In this document: one piece after another, positions 2,116-24,202 of the stretch
How positions within the stretch are numbered: position 1 is the stretch's first letter
How the letters are laid out: the number at the start of each line of letters is the position of its first letter
Source: a virus
Virus record (IMG/VR): IMGVR_UViG_3300045049_000020
Location: 1 to 24,202 of that record
Length of the DNA stretch: 24,202 bases
Direction: 5' to 3' (one strand)
Notes under the pieces: generated by a model
Told to the model about the DNA's origin: nothing
What the model saw: the letters and a program-made list of their open reading frames with translations, nothing else
Databases searched by the model: none
Position numbers and translations under genes: made by a program

Positions 2116-2132
2116 GGGGTCTACTAGACCCC
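2116..2132 (-). other. Small hairpin overlapping the fibre stop codon
   Basis: GGGGTCT and AGACCCC pair around AGT, with the TAG stop in the hairpin. No U-tract follows (GAGAACGG), so termination is doubtful. The stem could slow ribosomes at the end of the fibre message. Confidence 0.4.
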
Positions 2133-3476
2133 CCATTTGGCGTTCAAGTAGTTCTCGACACTCGTAATTTCAGTGCCAGAGAGCACCCTGTCATACACGA
2201 TAAGGGCAGCGATAGAAGCTGCATTCAGAGTATTCGCACCTCCGAAATCTGACCCCAGCGAGTTTGTATTACCAGAGCCAGCGCCGGTCGTACCGGTGCC
2301 GCTACCTGCCGATGCGCGCCCTTGTCGAAACGCATAAGCGCCGGTCGAGGCGTTGTATGTCGCGTTCGCTTGGTACCATGTGCCAACGGACCACGTGGTC
2401 GAACTCGTACCTATAACCGCTGTTCCGCTCTTGACCAGAGAAATAGCAAGTGTTGGTGATACCATCAGGTAGAAAGCGCACGAGCCAGACGCTCCACCAA
2501 TAAGCGCTTGACTAGAGCCGCTTGAACCGGGCTTGAATACTGCAAAGAAAGTGCATCCACCCGTACCCGCTTTGGCCAGTGGAAGCGGATTCGGTAGCGT
2601 GTAGTTGGTATTCGAGGGAGCTTTGAGCACGTTCAAGGAATTCAACTGTGTTGAATCTATGGATAGAAAGTTTGATGTAGCGGCGGCAGCGACACCAGTA
2701 ATCCAGGGTGTCCGCTCTTGAAGCCTTGCTATAAGCGCACCGCTGGCGCCCAGGATGTTGTCACTTTCCCACCAAAATGTCAGATCAGGAATCGTGCCCG
2801 GCAAGGCAACAGTTCCGCCTCCACCAGAACCTTGCGGCCCTGCAGGACCGGGCGGCCCCATATCGCCCTCAGCTCCATCTTCCCCAGGAAGCCATATAAC
2901 AGGCGCCGCAGCTCCCGGAGGACCCTGTATTCCTTGCGGGCCGGGGATAGCATGCCAACCGTCCTCGCCGTCTTCAGCACTCAGATATGTGGCAGGCCCG
3001 ACTGGACCGCCTGCGCCTGTGCTGCCGGGAGGACCGACTGCGCCGGGCACAGCGTCGAGCGCAGGCTCAGGGTCATCGGGCAGGAAGAATACAGCCGGCC
3101 CCATCGGACCAACTGCGCCAGTAGCCCCATTCTGCCCAGGCGGCCCGGGGTCCCCATCCCCGCCCCCTCCGCCGCCTTCCTCGAAGATGAACGCAGGAAT
3201 CGGCGCCGTCAGGTTGATCGGCACCGCGCCGACCAACACGCCGCCGCCAGACAAGCCGGGTCCTGGGACGAGCGAAGCCGCTGCCCCTCCGCCTGTGCTG
3301 CCGCCCGTCTTGGTGTTGAGCCCCAACGCCTGCTTGAGCTGCGCCAGCGAGACTGTCTGGTTCGCAAACTCCGTGATCGTGGTGCCTGGGTTGGCTGTAG
3401 CAGCCGCAGGGTCGGTTACACGAACGACCTTGCGGATGCCGCCAACAACGGGGAGCTGTACTTTCTTGCCTGCCAT
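2124..3476 (-). CDS. Tail fibre: collagen-like stalk with C-terminal lectin-like domain
   Basis: This 450-residue protein starts at the ATG one base after the previous stop; the longer in-frame start would overlap the upstream gene in antiphase. Residues 1-56 (VVRVTDPAAATANPGTTITE, then LAQLKQALGL) form the probable virion-attachment end. Residues 108-220 alternate Gly-X-Y collagen-like triplets with three acidic beta-hairpin-like units (VFFLPDDPEP, TYLSAEDGEDGW, VIWLPGEDGAEG). From 226 the domain IPDLTFWWESDNILGASGAL onward ends ALIVYDRVLSGTEITSVENYL, the hallmark end of concanavalin/LamG-like phage lectins. It probably binds the host surface. Confidence 0.85.
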   Translation of the reverse strand: MAGKKVQLPVVGGIRKVVRVTDPAAATANPGTTITEFANQTVSLAQLKQALGLNTKTGGSTGGGAAASLVPGPGLSGGGVLVGAVPINLTAPIPAFIFEEGGGGGGDGDPGPPGQNGATGAVGPMGPAVFFLPDDPEPALDAVPGAVGPPGSTGAGGPVGPATYLSAEDGEDGWHAIPGPQGIQGPPGAAAPVIWLPGEDGAEGDMGPPGPAGPQGSGGGGTVALPGTIPDLTFWWESDNILGASGALIARLQERTPWITGVAAAATSNFLSIDSTQLNSLNVLKAPSNTNYTLPNPLPLAKAGTGGCTFFAVFKPGSSGSSQALIGGASGSCAFYLMVSPTLAISLVKSGTAVIGTSSTTWSVGTWYQANATYNASTGAYAFRQGRASAGSGTGTTGAGSGNTNSLGSDFGGANTLNAASIAALIVYDRVLSGTEITSVENYLNAKWGV

Positions 3477-3477
3477 G

Positions 3478-5805
3478 TCATGACCCGAAGGCGTCTCCGA
3501 GTTTCGTGCCGTGGAGCGCGAGGTATCGGTTGAGCAACCCCTTTGCCGCCTGAAGCGACATGCCGCCACGGTCCATGATGGACAGTTTGCCGGTTGTGGG
3601 GTCTATCTGCACCTTCAGGTGGCCTTTGGGCGCCTTCAGGTCCACAGCGTCAGCCGTGTGCGCAATAGCGGTCGGGTTACCCTCGGGGTCGATACCGAAC
3701 GGTGCCGAGCCTGTCGAGCGCTCATGTGCCAGCCGCCGCTGAGCTTCGAGGCTCGCGGCTGACTCGCCCGAGGCGTTATTCTCGACGACTTGCCGCCGAG
3801 GCGTACCGCTCGGGAAGTCGACCGTATCACCGACGAATCGACGCTGTGGAGCCCTGACGGCGGTTCCCTCGGGAACCCCCTGACTTTTGACCGCCGCGTA
3901 ATCGCGCAAGTCGCTGAGCAGGTCACCCAGGCTAGGCTCCTTCCCTGCGGGCGCCAGCTCCAAGTCGCCAGCCTCGTGCGCGGCGTTCCGGGTGAAGGGC
4001 AAGCCTTCCTGTGCCGGAGCCCCCATAGGACCCACGGAGAGCCCCGCTGGCGGGCTTTGCTCAACCCCGTGGCTCAGCAGGTCCGCAAGAGGGATGTCGC
4101 CAGGGCGCCCAGCGGGCGCAGGCGGATTGGGGTTTGCGCCCTCGCCCAACGTGAAAGGAGACGGCCCCGGCCCTTGGGGTAGGTCGCCCAGGCTGAGCTG
4201 GCTGGGCGGCTTACCTGCCGTGCCAGGAGGCGGAGTGAGCCCGCCACGAGGGGTAAAGCGGTCAGGGTTGGCGCCGAAGCGCGCCCGAGCGTTCTCGACC
4301 GCCTGGGCGGTATCGCCCGTCAGCAGCTCGCGAGCCTTTCGGCCGCCCAGGAACTTGGCCACGCCTTTGATCGGGTTGTGCAGGTCCACCGCTTCGAGCG
4401 CGTCGCTGGCAAGGCTCGGCTGGTCGTAGGTGTTCGGGAGCCCCACCACATTCCGGCCTGGGCCGTTGGCGAAGTCCGCAATTTCCTTCAACCCGCCGTC
4501 GAGCAACTGAGGGTCGGCTCGCTGCATGCGGCCGATAGCCTTCAAGTCAACATCGGAGCCGTGGAGAGCGCTCTGCACGGCGTGGTTCTTGGCCAGAGTT
4601 TTGCGCGCGGCCTGGAAGTCCTCCACGGTCACGTCGCCGCCTTTCGGCAGGTTGCGTTCGATGTGGCCTTCGAGCGCCCGAGCCATGTCGAGCTGTGCGC
4701 GGCCAATAGCCTGCTGGTCCACATCTTCGGAGCCAACACGCTTGAAACCTTCCTGCCGCAGAGAGCGCAGGTTGTTGACCAGCTCATCGCCGGTCATTGG
4801 CTGAGAGAGCTGTTCGCGCATCGCCTGAATCTGCTTCTGCGAGGCTTCACTGGACGTGACGAGCTTGCCCTGTCCGCCGCCTGCTGACTTGATGGCCGCC
4901 TGAGCATCAGCATCAACAGCGCCCTCCGGCAGCGCCGCGCCCACTCGAGTGTAGACATCACTCGGCGCCTGCTGCGCCTTGGTGAGCGTGTCGTAGCTCA
5001 TCGGTCCTTCACCGGCGTGCCCAGCCTCGCCAGCGGCGATTGCGTTTCCAACTTGTTGGTTGTGGCCCTGGAGCGCCTGTTGACCAGACTTGCCAGCCAC
5101 AGCCTTGGCGACGTTCTGGCCTTCGCCCGATCGGAAAACAGGCGTCGGCGGCGCGGTTCCCGTGGGAACCGAAGGACCCTGGCCGGGCTCGGACACGTCG
5201 AAGCCTTCGCCGCTGGCGAGCGCCTTGGCGCCGCGCGCTGCAGTGCCGACAGCCTCGGCGCCCGTGCGGAAAGCATTGCCGACCTGCCCAGGAAGCCCGC
5301 GCGCTCCAGCCAGAGTCGCAACGTCCGCAGTCAGCGGAGCCACAACCTTGCTGGTGAACGGGTGAGCTTGCGCAAAGTCGCCCACTGCCTGATTCGTCTT
5401 GCCGACGCCGCGCGTCAGCGCATCACCAACACCAGCCGCGTCGAGCCCACGTTCAATGTCTGACGCAGTGGTGGCGCCGAAGTCTCGTGCAGCCGCGCCC
5501 TCCGGCACATGGAGCGCCTGAATCCACTTCGGGTCAGGCGCATCGTAGTTGCCCGTCACTCGGTGCACGATGTCAGATGCCGCATGCAACAGCCCATGGG
5601 GGATGTTGGCGATGGCACCGCCCGCAGCTTCACCAGCACCCAGGACGTACCGCCCGAGCGGCGCATTGGTGTCAGGCGGCGCCTCGGCCGGCGCAGCTTT
5701 GGCGCCATGAGCGTTTTGAAATGCTCGCAACCGTTGACCAAGTTCTGGCGGCAACTGGTCTGGCATTTCAACAACTACCCCATCTGGCATGGTGACCTGG
5801 GTCAT
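3478..5805 (-). CDS. Large internal virion / ejection protein with MPDG N-terminal motif
   Basis: This 775-residue protein is the largest of the ejection cluster. It opens MTQVTMPDGVVVEMPDQLPP, the short V-x-MPDG-x-V-x-x-PD motif often found at the start of phage virion proteins. Residues 50-75 and 150-180 have Gly/Ala hydrophobic helices (YVLGAGEAAGGAIANIPHG). The middle has a helical block with KTLAKNHAVQSALHGSDVDL and LKEIADFANGPG, a pattern I associate with podovirus internal proteins. From about 540 to 700 it is Pro/Gly-rich and probably disordered, and it ends RYLALHGTKLGDAFGS. No peptidoglycan hydrolase motif was found. The ejection role is inference. Confidence 0.7.
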   Translation of the reverse strand: MTQVTMPDGVVVEMPDQLPPELGQRLRAFQNAHGAKAAPAEAPPDTNAPLGRYVLGAGEAAGGAIANIPHGLLHAASDIVHRVTGNYDAPDPKWIQALHVPEGAAARDFGATTASDIERGLDAAGVGDALTRGVGKTNQAVGDFAQAHPFTSKVVAPLTADVATLAGARGLPGQVGNAFRTGAEAVGTAARGAKALASGEGFDVSEPGQGPSVPTGTAPPTPVFRSGEGQNVAKAVAGKSGQQALQGHNQQVGNAIAAGEAGHAGEGPMSYDTLTKAQQAPSDVYTRVGAALPEGAVDADAQAAIKSAGGGQGKLVTSSEASQKQIQAMREQLSQPMTGDELVNNLRSLRQEGFKRVGSEDVDQQAIGRAQLDMARALEGHIERNLPKGGDVTVEDFQAARKTLAKNHAVQSALHGSDVDLKAIGRMQRADPQLLDGGLKEIADFANGPGRNVVGLPNTYDQPSLASDALEAVDLHNPIKGVAKFLGGRKARELLTGDTAQAVENARARFGANPDRFTPRGGLTPPPGTAGKPPSQLSLGDLPQGPGPSPFTLGEGANPNPPAPAGRPGDIPLADLLSHGVEQSPPAGLSVGPMGAPAQEGLPFTRNAAHEAGDLELAPAGKEPSLGDLLSDLRDYAAVKSQGVPEGTAVRAPQRRFVGDTVDFPSGTPRRQVVENNASGESAASLEAQRRLAHERSTGSAPFGIDPEGNPTAIAHTADAVDLKAPKGHLKVQIDPTTGKLSIMDRGGMSLQAAKGLLNRYLALHGTKLGDAFGS

Positions 5806-8938: not shown

Positions 8939-9451
8939 TCAGTGCTTCACTCTGCTGAAACTGAGGGCATCCGCGCCGTTCGCGCAGTACCCATAGTGCC
9001 GGCCTTCTTGGTGATACCCCAAGACTTTATACCACTTGGCCAGCTCCGGCCTACTTTCGACCCGAGGCGCCGGCACGATGCACTCCAGCCGGTGAGCATG
9101 GCTCATCAGCATAGCATCCATGATTCGCCGGCAAATTCGCGTCACTTGGAACCCGTGCTGCTCCCAGGCTTCCGGGGTCGTGAGCAGGAAATCCCGATAC
9201 ACTCCAGGGCGCTGCGGAACGAAGCCGCCAATGATGATCGGTTGCGCGAGCCCCTTCTCGTGATCCTCGGCGCTCCCTGCTTTGATGACCCACTTCGGTC
9301 CTGGCACCATAAAGTTGCCCACAGCCGCGCTATCAATGTTGTACTCCTCACCGGTCAGAGCCGTGAGCTGTTCGCGCTCGTCCTGCGGCATACGCGCGCA
9401 GACCTGAATGAAATCCGTCATCCACGGGTCGTTGTAGCATCGAACGATCAT
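8939..9451 (-). CDS. GNAT-like internal virion protein (T7 gp13-like)
   Basis: This 170-residue protein starts at the ATG overlapping the nozzle stop (ATGA). It has DDE-like charged starts (MPQDEREQLTALTGEEY), then VPGPKWVIKAGS, PIIIGGFVPQRPGVYRDF, a helix HGFQVTRICRRIMDAML and a C-terminal WYKVLGYHQEGRHYGYCANG. This pattern matches GNAT-fold phage proteins of the gp13 type, which are found at the head of podovirus internal virion gene clusters. Whether it acetylates anything is unknown; the classical acetyl-CoA loop R/Q-x-x-G-x-G/A is not obvious. In T7, gp13 is needed for virion assembly of the ejection core. That function is carried over by analogy. Confidence 0.78.
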   Translation of the reverse strand: MIVRCYNDPWMTDFIQVCARMPQDEREQLTALTGEEYNIDSAAVGNFMVPGPKWVIKAGSAEDHEKGLAQPIIIGGFVPQRPGVYRDFLLTTPEAWEQHGFQVTRICRRIMDAMLMSHAHRLECIVPAPRVESRPELAKWYKVLGYHQEGRHYGYCANGADALSFSRVKH

Positions 9452-12180
9452 CCTGTTGCTCCTCCGCCGCCTCGATCGGTGACGTACAAGTTGGCAGCTT
9501 CCCACTCCCATGACTGGCTATTCGGTGCGCCAAGGCCGGGCTGGTTTGAGTTGAAAGACAAAATGACGGTGTAGCTCGGTGCTTCCATCGGAATCGGAAT
9601 CGGTTCTCCTGGCACAGTATCCACGATAGACACAGTGAAGGGCGGCGACACGTTGGGGGATGTGGCGAAGCCAGCATTGTCGGAGAAGGTCGTGTTGTCT
9701 TGCTGGTTCCAGCCGACTTGCAGCGTGCACGCGCCAGTGCCGACAAGATCGACACCAACCATCATCTTGTCAACACCGAGCACTCCCGCGTCGAGGTACG
9801 GCCACTGGATGGTGGACGTGAACGACACATTGGTGCCGCCTGCGCCGCCAGTGCTGGCGTCATCGACCAGAGTGTTGTAGTCGAACTGCCATACCAGATT
9901 GCCGGCAGAGCGCAGATACAGCACTTCACCCAGCAAGCACCAGTCGGTGATGACATCGGGGAAGGTGTAGCGGCTCCATGACTTCTGGTTGGGGCCGTTC
10001 ACCGTCAGCACGATCGCCTCGGGACCCCAAATCGCCCAATACTGGCCGCGACCGGGGTAGTAGAGCGAAATGACATCGTACAGGTTGGCCTTCAGCCGCG
10101 CCTTCACGATCGGGTCAACCGGCTGACCGACGCCGCCTGTCTGCATGTTGGCAGTCGCACCAACCGTGCCCAAGTTGCGGATGCCAACCTCAGTGACGAA
10201 CATGAAGTCGTTGGCCACAGATTGGCCGCCGCGAGTATGGATGGAGCCAACCGGCTGAGCGTCGAGTAGCGCCATGTTCTGCGGGTCAGGATCAATCTGC
10301 CACATCTGATAGCCGCCCGAGTTCATGGCGACGAGGTTCGAGCGGTAGAGCCCGAGCACCTTCACCGGGTTGTCGCCGTAGTTGTTCAACCCGGTCGGAA
10401 GATAGCCAGCATTGTTCGTGCTGGTCCAGTCTGTGGGGTCTACCGCAGCCGAGTAATCCACGATGTCGTTGTCGGCATTGAACACGTGCGAGGCGCCGAG
10501 GCACACAGCCACGTTGGGGTTGGGCGTGGCAACCTGACGGTTGATCGCAACCCACGACATCGACGTATCAGTAACGTGCCCGTCCTGCGTTGTATAGCTG
10601 CTCGGGTCATGCACTGAGTTACCAACGGTCGTCGGGAAAGCCGGCTGGCTCGCACCAGACTGCATGATCGGAATCGCCTGCCACGTGATGATGCTGGTGC
10701 CGATGGCTTTCCAAGTCACCTGATTGTCGATGACCGTGTTGCCCGCCGTCGTCGGCCATGTCGGCTCAGTCGTACCAGACGAGCCAGCATTCGCCTGCAC
10801 GGCTTCGTATAAGAAGTTGGAAACCTTCGCAGCAGTCTCAAGGTTCCACGTCACCAAGTCGGCATAGCTTGGGTTCGGGCTCGTGCCGGTCGCGCTTTTG
10901 ATCTGCACGCGCACGTGGGCCGCGCCAGTTGGCGCATTGCCGGTGACGCTGACCTGACGGTAGCCGCCGCCTTGCGCTCCAGCGCTTTGCGTCGAGCTGA
11001 TGAGCGTGTCGCTGGAGTTGTACCAGTTCAAAATGACCCACATCGTCGTGTCGGGGCCATTGTTGTTCGGGTTGAGATACGCGCTCGCAGTGACGCTCTG
11101 GCCCGGCGTGACCGTGCCGAAGTTGAACATCGTTGCTGTCTGCGTGTCATGGTTGAGCGCGAACTTCAGGGAGAAGTTGCCCTGATAGTTGTTGGTGCTC
11201 TGAATCGTCACGTCGCCAGCGCTGAGAGTCCAGTTACCGTCGTTGCCCGCCTCGAAGTCGCCGTTCGGGATGGCATTGATGAACGCGCCCTGGTTGGTGC
11301 TCGGCTGCACAACGCTACCGGGCGGGTACGTCGTGCCGGGCGCCCAGGTCGTGACGGTCGCCGCAGCCTGCACGGTCGTCGAGGCGTTGCCGCTCGTACC
11401 CGTATTGCCAGAAATAGTGGCGCTGTTGCCGTAACGATCGGTGATGTTGGAACCGAGCGGTTGCGCGCTCGTCGTGTTTGAGCTTGCCTGCGTCGTGCCC
11501 GAGCTGCTGGAGCTGGTATCGAAGTCACCAAACTCCTGCACGATGCCGCCAATGGTCGTCGGCCAAATGGGCTCTGTCGAGCCCGTATGCGGCGAGCTTC
11601 CCAACACCGACACGGCGCGATAAGCGTAGCCAGTGTACTGCGTCGGCTCGACGACGGTGCCAGCCGTTATTGTTGACTGCGCCGTCCAGTTTGAATTCGC
11701 AGGCATGTCCCGCAACGCCTGATACGCAAGGCCGTTGGCAGGAGTCGGCGTAACGATTGCGCCCGTCTTGTACACTGTGTTGGCCGCCCATGAGCCGTTG
11801 CTCTGGAGCCAGTAATGGAACACTTCGCCAGTGCTGAATTGCGCGACCACATACGGGAACCCCATGAACGGCTTAGCAAACCAGATTTTGGTGAGCGTCG
11901 CAGCCGGGTTCGTCGGGTGAATGAGCAGGTTGCACACGTAGCCAGCCGGCACTGTCTGCATGCTCGTAGCAAACACGTTGAACTGACCGTTGAACGCAGT
12001 GAGCCCAACAGTCTGGTTCGTGAGCGTCGCGGCGCGGATAGTGCCCTCGCGAGGCACGATCGTACCTGCCTGCGTCAGATAGGCATTCGTCAAGTCGTAA
12101 AGAGAGTCGGCTCGCGCCGCTCCCTTCACCTTCAGGCGGTTGATACCGCCGCGCATCGTTGTCAGTGGCACTGGTCGCAT
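9448..12180 (-). CDS. Tail nozzle / DNA-stabilisation-type protein with inserted carbohydrate-binding-like domain
   Basis: This 910-residue protein opens PLTTMRGGINRLKVKG and continues DLTNAYLTQAGTIVPREG, a start resembling P22 gp10-like nozzle proteins. From 550 on it has GASHVFNADNDIVDYSAAVDP, GLYRSNLVAMNSGGYQMWQI and YYPGRGQYWAIWGPEAI, consistent with propeller blades. An insertion at about 128-546 breaks the propeller. It contains chitin-binding-like W-A-x-N-T-x-Y motifs (131, 279), three SG-TEP-WP-type segments (195, 464, 507), and at 303-448 a block starting IPNGDFEAGNDGNWTLS that resembles a CBM4/9 jelly roll. The nozzle would close the tail tube; the insert may bind surface glycan. 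The stop overlaps the next start (ATGA). Confidence 0.78.
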   Translation of the reverse strand: MRPVPLTTMRGGINRLKVKGAARADSLYDLTNAYLTQAGTIVPREGTIRAATLTNQTVGLTAFNGQFNVFATSMQTVPAGYVCNLLIHPTNPAATLTKIWFAKPFMGFPYVVAQFSTGEVFHYWLQSNGSWAANTVYKTGAIVTPTPANGLAYQALRDMPANSNWTAQSTITAGTVVEPTQYTGYAYRAVSVLGSSPHTGSTEPIWPTTIGGIVQEFGDFDTSSSSSGTTQASSNTTSAQPLGSNITDRYGNSATISGNTGTSGNASTTVQAAATVTTWAPGTTYPPGSVVQPSTNQGAFINAIPNGDFEAGNDGNWTLSAGDVTIQSTNNYQGNFSLKFALNHDTQTATMFNFGTVTPGQSVTASAYLNPNNNGPDTTMWVILNWYNSSDTLISSTQSAGAQGGGYRQVSVTGNAPTGAAHVRVQIKSATGTSPNPSYADLVTWNLETAAKVSNFLYEAVQANAGSSGTTEPTWPTTAGNTVIDNQVTWKAIGTSIITWQAIPIMQSGASQPAFPTTVGNSVHDPSSYTTQDGHVTDTSMSWVAINRQVATPNPNVAVCLGASHVFNADNDIVDYSAAVDPTDWTSTNNAGYLPTGLNNYGDNPVKVLGLYRSNLVAMNSGGYQMWQIDPDPQNMALLDAQPVGSIHTRGGQSVANDFMFVTEVGIRNLGTVGATANMQTGGVGQPVDPIVKARLKANLYDVISLYYPGRGQYWAIWGPEAIVLTVNGPNQKSWSRYTFPDVITDWCLLGEVLYLRSAGNLVWQFDYNTLVDDASTGGAGGTNVSFTSTIQWPYLDAGVLGVDKMMVGVDLVGTGACTLQVGWNQQDNTTFSDNAGFATSPNVSPPFTVSIVDTVPGEPIPIPMEAPSYTVILSFNSNQPGLGAPNSQSWEWEAANLYVTDRGGGGATG

Positions 12181-22785: not shown

Positions 22786-22986
22786 TCAAACTGGTGTGTC
22801 GGTCGTGTCTGTTGGATTGACGGGCACGCCGGGTGCAGTGTCGTTAAACGACACTGCGAGCTGGTCAGCCGGGTCAACCGTTGTTGGCGAGTTCGAGCTG
22901 GCCGGCGCGATAGCAGGAGGACCGCCCGGCTGTCCTGCCGGAATCGAGTCATCGACGGGTCCTATGCCTGGAACGTAAGTAATCAT
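22786..22986 (-). CDS. Small Pro/Gly-rich phage protein, VPGIGP N-terminus
   Basis: This 66-residue protein starts at the ATG overlapping the terminase stop (ATGA at 22983-22986). It opens with MITYVPGIGPVDD and is then low-complexity, rich in Pro, Ala, Thr and Asp, with no predicted membrane segment, so probably extended or disordered. Its first ten residues match the start of the protein two genes downstream (MIIHVPGFGP), which suggests duplication or a shared N-terminal signal. A 23-bp perfect palindrome lies inside the coding sequence (22835-22857). The position between terminase and portal suggests a packaging or head-assembly role, but no family is recognised. Confidence 0.65.
   Translation of the reverse strand: MITYVPGIGPVDDSIPAGQPGGPPAIAPASSNSPTTVDPADQLAVSFNDTAPGVPVNPTDTTDTPV
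22835..22857. repeat. 23-bp perfect palindrome (11-bp arms, 1-nt centre)
   Basis: Arms GCAGTGTCGTT and AACGACACTGC flank a single A. It lies inside the 66-residue gene downstream of the terminase. As RNA the one-base centre would have to open to form a hairpin loop. As DNA it has the shape of a two-fold symmetric protein-binding site. No T-tract follows on either strand, so it does not look like an intrinsic terminator. Confidence 0.8.
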
Positions 22987-23624
22987 GAGAAGTACCTCAC
23001 TGCGGGTCGCTGCTCGCCTTCGTATTCGAGCCATTGCGCGCTATAAGGTATCAGCATGGGCTTCGCCTGCACAACTGGCACCGCCGCGTCGAACATTTGG
23101 TCAAGCCCGCGTCCGATCAGGCCGCACACGTCGGCCGCGTCATCCCACCGGCCGCCAGGAAATTTGATGAGCTGGTCGATGACCCGCTCCCACCAGGGTT
23201 CCCCCAACGGGCCGTACACCATTCCGTTGGCGACCATGCCGTGAAACGCCTGGAGCTTCAAGCCTTTGTCGAGAATCGACGGCAAACCCTCCAACACAGT
23301 GAAGGTGCGCGTGCGGCGCATTTCCTTACGTATCCAGGGCGCGATTGACTTGTCAATCAAACCGCCTTCGTGCCACCACTTCATCGGCTTCCAAGCGCGA
23401 ACCAACTTGAGGAATGCCTCGACGCTCTTGTCGGTCTCAGCCTGCTTGCTCCACCACGCGCGCGCGAACAACCGGCCCTGGCTGTCTATGCTCCAGACGC
23501 CATGCTCGGTATAGTCGGGCTCCTTCTTGCCCTTCTGTGGCTCCATCGTGCCGTAGTCGCTCGCGCCATAGTTGCGCAGGTAGCGAGGCAGCGCGATTGC
23601 GCCGTCGAAATTCCCGTACTTCAC
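22983..23624 (-). CDS. terL: Terminase large subunit, RNase H-like nuclease domain (separate ORF)
   Basis: This 213-residue product is the C-terminal nuclease half of a large terminase. It begins near LPRYLRNYGASDYG, where D23 is the usual first acidic metal ligand. DYTEHGVWSID follows, then WWHEGGLIDKS with E85 and D91 as candidate second ligands, and GGRWDDAADVCGL with D161/D162/D165 as the last acidic cluster. The GTG at 23624 is preferred because GAAGGTGG lies just upstream. A TTG at 23666 is an in-frame alternative. The domain cuts concatemeric DNA at the start and end of packaging. It normally forms one chain with the ATPase, but here the two are separated by an in-frame TGA and about 140 bases that encode nothing terminase-like. 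The stop overlaps the next start (ATGA), so the downstream gene is probably translationally coupled. Confidence 0.88.
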   Translation of the reverse strand: MKYGNFDGAIALPRYLRNYGASDYGTMEPQKGKKEPDYTEHGVWSIDSQGRLFARAWWSKQAETDKSVEAFLKLVRAWKPMKWWHEGGLIDKSIAPWIRKEMRRTRTFTVLEGLPSILDKGLKLQAFHGMVANGMVYGPLGEPWWERVIDQLIKFPGGRWDDAADVCGLIGRGLDQMFDAAVPVVQAKPMLIPYSAQWLEYEGEQRPAVRYFS

Positions 23625-23762
23625 GTTTCCACCTTCGTTTGTAGCTGCGCAAGCAACGATGATCAACGTACCAAACGTCGATCCAGTTGCACCAGAAAGG
23701 CCGGTTACACCGGCTGAGCGGAATGTTGTATTCCACCCGCATCGTCTCAGTGATTCGCTTTC
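23625..23762 (-). other. Spacer interrupting the terminase large subunit
   Basis: This segment lies between the TGA of the ATPase part and the GTG of the nuclease part. The terminase frame has no further stop across it, but the residues it would encode (ESESLRRCGWNTT and onward) resemble no terminase linker. An ATG overlaps the TGA (ATGA) and opens a second frame starting MRKRITETMRVEYN, rich in Trp, Cys, Tyr and Arg for about 47 codons before running antiphase over the nuclease gene. A small inverted repeat GCCGGT-TAC-ACCGGC lies at 23700-23714. At this size it is shorter than a normal group I intron or intein. It may be a small insertion or an intron remnant. Its function is not established. 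Confidence 0.6.
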
Positions 23763-24202
23763 TCATACTGGCGCCAGCCTCGGGTCGTAGTAGCGAAACA
23801 TATCCCGCTGGAAGTGAATACCCGTGAACGGCGCCGGCCGCTGTTGGTACAACGCGGCCCAGGTTCGCGCCGCTCGCGGGTTGTCACGCCATGTTGACCA
23901 GTGTTCCCGTGGGAACCACTCCGGCCAGAGGAACTGGCCCGGCTTGCGGCCGAGTACGTCGTCTTCACGCTCCGCCTCGGCCGGAATGCACAGCACCTTC
24001 CACGTCTGCCCGTCGCGGCATTTGATGAAGCCGGACTCGCCCGCGTAGTCAGCGGGGAGAATCGCGCCGGCAAGGTCGTCCTCGTGCCAACGTGTTTGAA
24101 TGATGATGCACCACATATGCGGCTTCGCGCGGGTCATCACCGTGTCGATGTATTCGTTGTAAATCTTCTCGCGGATCGTGGCGGAGTCAGCTTCCTCGCG
24201 GT
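23763..24202 (-). CDS. terL: Terminase large subunit, ATPase-side part (5' end outside window)
   Basis: The frame is open to the right edge, so the start and the Walker A region lie outside. The visible part begins with the residues REEADSATIREKI, which precede the ATPase-domain strand in many phage large terminases, and then has IIIQTRWHEDDLAG, the typical motif that follows it. Residues near the end (TWAALYQQRPAP, then FRYYDPR) match the linker that normally leads straight into the nuclease domain. Here translation stops at TGA (23763-23765) right after that linker. The nuclease domain is found downstream in the same frame (see next gene). Large terminases drive ATP-dependent packaging of DNA into proheads through the portal. 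Identity as TerL is secure. Whether the stop is real, read through, or marks a two-subunit terminase cannot be decided from the sequence. Confidence 0.93.
   Translation of the reverse strand, partial: REEADSATIREKIYNEYIDTVMTRAKPHMWCIIIQTRWHEDDLAGAILPADYAGESGFIKCRDGQTWKVLCIPAEAEREDDVLGRKPGQFLWPEWFPREHWSTWRDNPRAARTWAALYQQRPAPFTGIHFQRDMFRYYDPRLAPV

Follow-up and report, generated by a model that had tools for sequence, protein, structure and literature searches.

The large terminase (TerL) of the phages studied here is very probably encoded by two adjacent genes, one for an ATPase of ~350 aa and the other for a nuclease of ~215 aa, which would derive from one fission, be translated separately and work in trans. 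A fused TerL would have split once, at the linker between its ATPase and RNase H-like nuclease domains; in most relatives, the two chains would be translated separately and coupled through a stop-start overlap of four bases. In the window, i.e., the whole stretch of DNA that was analysed, which is held in IMG/VR as a virus record 24,202 bases long, the nuclease would be translated from its own GTG with its own putative ribosome-binding site. At the portal, the two chains would act jointly, presumably in a complex that forms in trans. The boundary between the two genes would act as an ordinary gene junction, where small genes may come and go without harm to TerL, the window appearing to carry one small ORF as such cargo.

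Layout of the terminase genes in the window

The genes discussed lie on the minus strand. Translation of 24200-22983 (-) contains exactly one in-frame stop, a TGA at 23765-23763 following FRYYDPRLAPV, and the open frame downstream of this TGA includes LPRYLRNYGASDYG; this agrees with an earlier note on this DNA, which described an ATPase-side part ending in TGA and a nuclease part resuming in frame with no second stop. Both parts match the TerL family phrog_38 in successive stretches of its profile. The first is the 3' part of the TerL ATPase gene (23763..24202, minus strand; E 1e-24, profile 415-539), of which only the last 145 codons are present (coding 24200-23766), the 5' end lying beyond the contig. 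The second is the TerL nuclease gene (22983..23624, minus strand; E 5e-12, profile 558-709), which encodes 213 aa from a GTG start to a TGA stop at 22985-22983. Between the end of the first TGA and this GTG lie 138 nt. GTG 23624 is the most likely start of the nuclease gene, judging from the Shine-Dalgarno-like GAAGGTGG read directly four bases before it (23629..23636, minus strand) and from its homologues, which start at the equivalent position.

The spacer holds a small ORF (23437..23766, minus strand), taken from the ORF list and from its homology to an ORF in the relatives L005/L015; its start codon overlaps the ATPase stop in an ATGA, also read directly (23763..23766, minus strand). Both the ATGA and GAAGGTGG are thus present as previously noted, but the ATGA, which had been taken to favour two separately translated subunits, is shared with the start of the small ORF in the spacer and not with that of the nuclease. 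This ORF shares 40% identity over 47 aa with a 66-aa ORF that L005/L015 carry in the equivalent position and belongs to no Pfam or PHROG family; no endonuclease domain was found in it. The part homologous to L005/L015 spans ~23766-23623, after which the frame continues inside the nuclease gene to 23437, so the ORF may be damaged or decayed. On the other side of the nuclease gene, the next small ORF (22786..22986, minus strand; from the sequence and the ORF list, with a putative start codon) overlaps the nuclease stop, again in an ATGA (22986-22983).

Elsewhere in the window, an ORF at 2124-3569 (-) carries collagen-like GXY repeats (GDPGPPGQNGATGAVGPMGPA...) in mid-protein and is probably a tail or fibre protein. 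A 910-aa protein encoded at 9448-12180 (-) matches the tail-fibre family phrog_12940 and the head-decoration family phrog_20658, with a sub-threshold match to CBM_5_12.

The split in related phages and the junction cargo

To collect relatives, IMG/VR was searched with either half and with an alignment of the nuclease, the matches listed there being the best 80 of 253, and a further set came from bacterial genomes. Removal of near-copies left 80 loci, 65 split and 15 fused, 10 of the latter from the distant bacterial set. The records of the clade are metagenomic fragments of uncultured tailed phages, with no isolate among them. Among the matches listed, 65 of the 70 close non-redundant IMG/VR relatives resemble the window in having separate ATPase and nuclease genes rather than one polypeptide with both activities, and 5 of the 70 are fused. 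In 33 of the 65 split relatives, exactly four bases (ATGA or GTGA) are common to the stop codon of the ATPase gene and the start codon of the nuclease gene. The bacterial genome scan returned distant homologues only, mostly fused and 27-39% identical, which gave no basis for naming a host. No second, separate terminase gene was found in the sampled weaker-match isolates, which were the Gordonia phages Danyall and YungMoney, Arthrobacter TripleJ and Pseudomonas KPP25.

The earlier note proposed that a small insertion had split the gene. The insertion does exist; however, four relatives (L002, L004, L016 and L017) with ~95% DNA identity to the window in both flanks have two genes with a four-base overlap and no insert, and as these phages are split without it, the insert is not the cause of the split. 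On this comparison of sequences, the ATPase/nuclease split is read as an old trait of the whole clade and the spacer as one of many optional cargo genes lodged where two genes already met.

As far as alignments and trees can indicate, the simplest and most likely account of the split is that a fused ancestor underwent fission once. When the search was widened by querying with the nuclease part of L051, itself a fused locus, the matches listed comprised 80 loci, of which 76 were fused and 2 incomplete; the other 2 were split, and one of them (L172) is a contig already present in the split group as L009. With fused relatives as the outgroup, a free tree search needed two changes; the tree holding all split rows in one clade had a likelihood higher by 9.65 (AU p 0.63), and an earlier tree test had also been compatible with a single origin (AU p 0.34). 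The four or five fused close relatives have a tentative place in the tree. Alignment to fused proteins, a check suggested at the outset, places the break in the linker between the domains, with all conserved residues present. A Y-D-P-like motif occurs at the junction in both halves. A tandem duplication of the linker was considered as the origin and rejected: with loci that simply overlap set aside, the DNA match between ATPase end and nuclease start reached the 99% level of the cross-locus null only in L020 (16 nt).

In 19 of the 65 split loci, 77-1040 extra bases lie between the two genes. At the ATPase stop, 15 of these 19 loci have an overlapping start codon, and in 18 the nuclease start is of the NTGA form, so cargo genes are typically flanked by a stop-start overlap on either side. 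Among the cargo are endonuclease VII-type genes in two lineages (L028/L067 and L065), a TylF/Methyltransf_24 methyltransferase (L130/L134), an ORF of the uncharacterised phage family phrog_4919 (L021), a tRNA-His that falls entirely within the gap separating the ATPase gene from the nuclease gene (L084, 531-603), and short coiled-coil-like and CxxC-containing families. Some cargo genes have relatives elsewhere in the same region of related phages. The presence of an insert is scattered over the tree (17 changes versus 17.1 in shuffles), which suggests that inserts have often been gained and lost.

Two of the short families recur. A 62-aa coiled-coil-like family, with 60% identity to the L101 member and no PHROG match, stands directly before the nuclease start in L101, L023, L130, L134 and L136. 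Another, of 48-56 aa and ending in ...AWKQCxxCAxSKLIHxL, is found at the ATPase/nuclease junction of L008, L044, L095 and L098 and has no match in Pfam or PHROG. Inteins, recognised by Intein_splicing and Hint matches, occur in the ATPase half of L064 (1977-3815) and L065 (2576-4339); here, a protein-splicing mobile element sits inside one half of an already split terminase.

The endonuclease genes in the gap raise the question of whether the insertion of a homing endonuclease made the original split, as in Aeh1 nrdA, with present inserts and overlaps as its remains. Precedents are Aeh1 nrdA itself and phage 25 gene 43 (PMC2988022), and L028 and L065 carry a gene of this kind where the window does not. 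Such an origin is nevertheless unlikely: endonuclease genes in the gap are rare, the inserts are scattered on the tree as just described, and related endonucleases at other junctions of these phages make those in the gap look like late arrivals. It also touches the origin only and is compatible with two chains.

Two chains rather than one

For ALTERNATIVES, splicing, frameshifting, read-through and sequencing error are all disfavoured. The earlier note left open two polypeptides or one made by read-through; two separately translated chains are favoured and read-through is not. Recoding into one polypeptide, by read-through of the TGA or by -1 frameshifting at the overlap, could draw on the single TGA between two in-frame parts in the window and on the -1 frame of the nuclease in many relatives, but it is very unlikely. 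Across the 65 non-redundant split relatives, the frame relation between ATPase and nuclease genes is not constant (45/14/6 for frames 2/1/0), and the common frame of the two parts in the window, previously given weight, is thus a coincidence. For frameshifting, none of 40 overlapping loci showed an X_XXY_YYZ slippery heptamer within the final 60 nt. In relatives, a ribosome reading through would need to traverse inserts of up to 1 kb, among them endonuclease and methyltransferase genes and even a tRNA, and the 32 codons that follow the TGA in the window are missing from its closest relatives.

Still less credible is that the spacer is an intron or a similar spliced element whose removal yields a single-chain TerL. 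Group I introns have been reported in phage terL genes (PMC10448857, PMC11878797); most members of this clade, however, have no intervening sequence and show the four-base overlap instead. Rfam detected no group I or group II intron at the junction of the window at E values up to 1, and none at the gathering threshold in 13 insert-bearing loci, in which the only match was the tRNA. To our knowledge, the 138-nt spacer is also below the size of known group I introns.

Finally, although the seemingly frame-damaged small ORF of the window indicates that local decay exists, an error in sequencing or a terminase gene no longer functional can practically be dismissed, since dozens of contigs, drawn from different metagenomes, show the split, purifying selection acts on both halves, which keep their catalytic residues, and no other TerL was found in the long relatives. 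Neither a sequencing error nor relatives with a continuous gene containing the same spacer as a linker, either of which would have spoken against an unusual terminase, was found.

Both halves indeed retain the hallmarks of TerL. Complete homologues of the ATPase half are about 333-374 aa long, the two intein-bearing ones excepted, and show the P-loop ATPase signature, Walker A being PPGSAKST and Walker B IDDP; the PPG.(G)K(S) and DDP columns are invariant in 30 homologues, and L018, which has both genes complete (3341-4438 and 4435-5076), scores above the PF03237 Terminase_6N cut-off. In the RNase H-like nuclease, D23, E86, D161, D162 and D165 are invariant in a 38-row alignment. In both halves, dN/dS is 0 to 0.19, pointing to strong purifying selection. 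The nuclease alone is predicted to form a compact domain (pLDDT 79), and Foldseek with this model retrieves the TerL nucleases 5m1q, 3c6a and 5tge, the predicted fold resembling the G20c, RB49 and P74-26 enzymes. The model of the ATPase half is weak (pLDDT 65.5), and its fold search gave no match at E<0.001. In each of eight relatives 46-47.5 kb in length, the ATPase half and the nuclease half were matched exactly once, and no second TerL was found; the records do not state completeness, but lengths as uniform as these point to nearly complete genomes. Based on selection, the kept motifs and these sole TerL matches, the two chains most likely do the packaging work together.

Known systems and what the split means

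Single-chain enzymes of the same TerL family are found in Microcystis phage Mwe-JY13 and Pseudanabaena phage Pan3, to which the ATPase half is 42-51% and the nuclease half 34-38% identical; these two nearest isolates checked have a single terL of ~510 codons where the clade described here has two genes. Essential phage enzymes made as two polypeptides that must assemble are known from Aeh1 nrdA and phage 25 gene 43A/43B (PMC2988022). Endonuclease genes can sit in the gap of these genes, as they do in two lineages of the clade; by comparison, those cases concern other enzymes and individual phages, while the split TerL is clade-wide, mostly free of inserts and placed at a domain boundary. By analogy with the two-chain ribonucleotide reductase of Aeh1 and the DNA polymerase of phage 25 (PMC2988022), the two terminase chains may bind each other.

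Interrupted terL genes have been described in ICP1, Bastillevirinae SIOphi, Jug phages, Campylobacter IBB_35 and Mic1 (PMC10448857, PMC11878797, PMC12363816, PMC3322345, PMC7156551); there, splicing of an intron or intein restores one chain, in contrast to the junction described here, at which neither was found. In Enterococcus phage iF6, two ORFs are annotated as large terminase with two inserted VSR endonuclease genes between them (PMC10054541); however, only a 95-aa fragment is cut off, the authors deem only the longer ORF functional, and there is no clean division into ATPase and nuclease. A literature search, mostly of papers outside subscription, found no clade-wide two-gene TerL free of intron or intein, and the claim to novelty is limited accordingly. 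Split phage genes are thus already known, and what is apparently undescribed is a regular two-gene TerL with an ordinary translational overlap.

A further idea goes beyond two cooperating chains and is a tentative one, improbable as it stands: the nuclease might be a dissociable subunit, present on the ATPase ring in a number or at a time other than 1:1, with some of the junction cargo (the coiled-coil-like and CxxC proteins) modulating both chains.

For annotation, the split means that either half alone receives the name "terminase large subunit" in this clade, and that searches with full-length TerL markers would miss its phages or read them as broken. Actinophage annotation uses separate "ATPase domain" and "nuclease domain" terminase names. 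For the packaging motor, current models have the ATPase covalently tied to the nuclease; in them, the domains are coordinated by motion of the linker, and cutting is under the control of the ATPase (reviewed in PMC7617512). The lineage described here, in which the halves have apparently stayed separate ever since a single fission, amounts to a natural test of whether this covalent link is needed, and two short proteins make that need testable.
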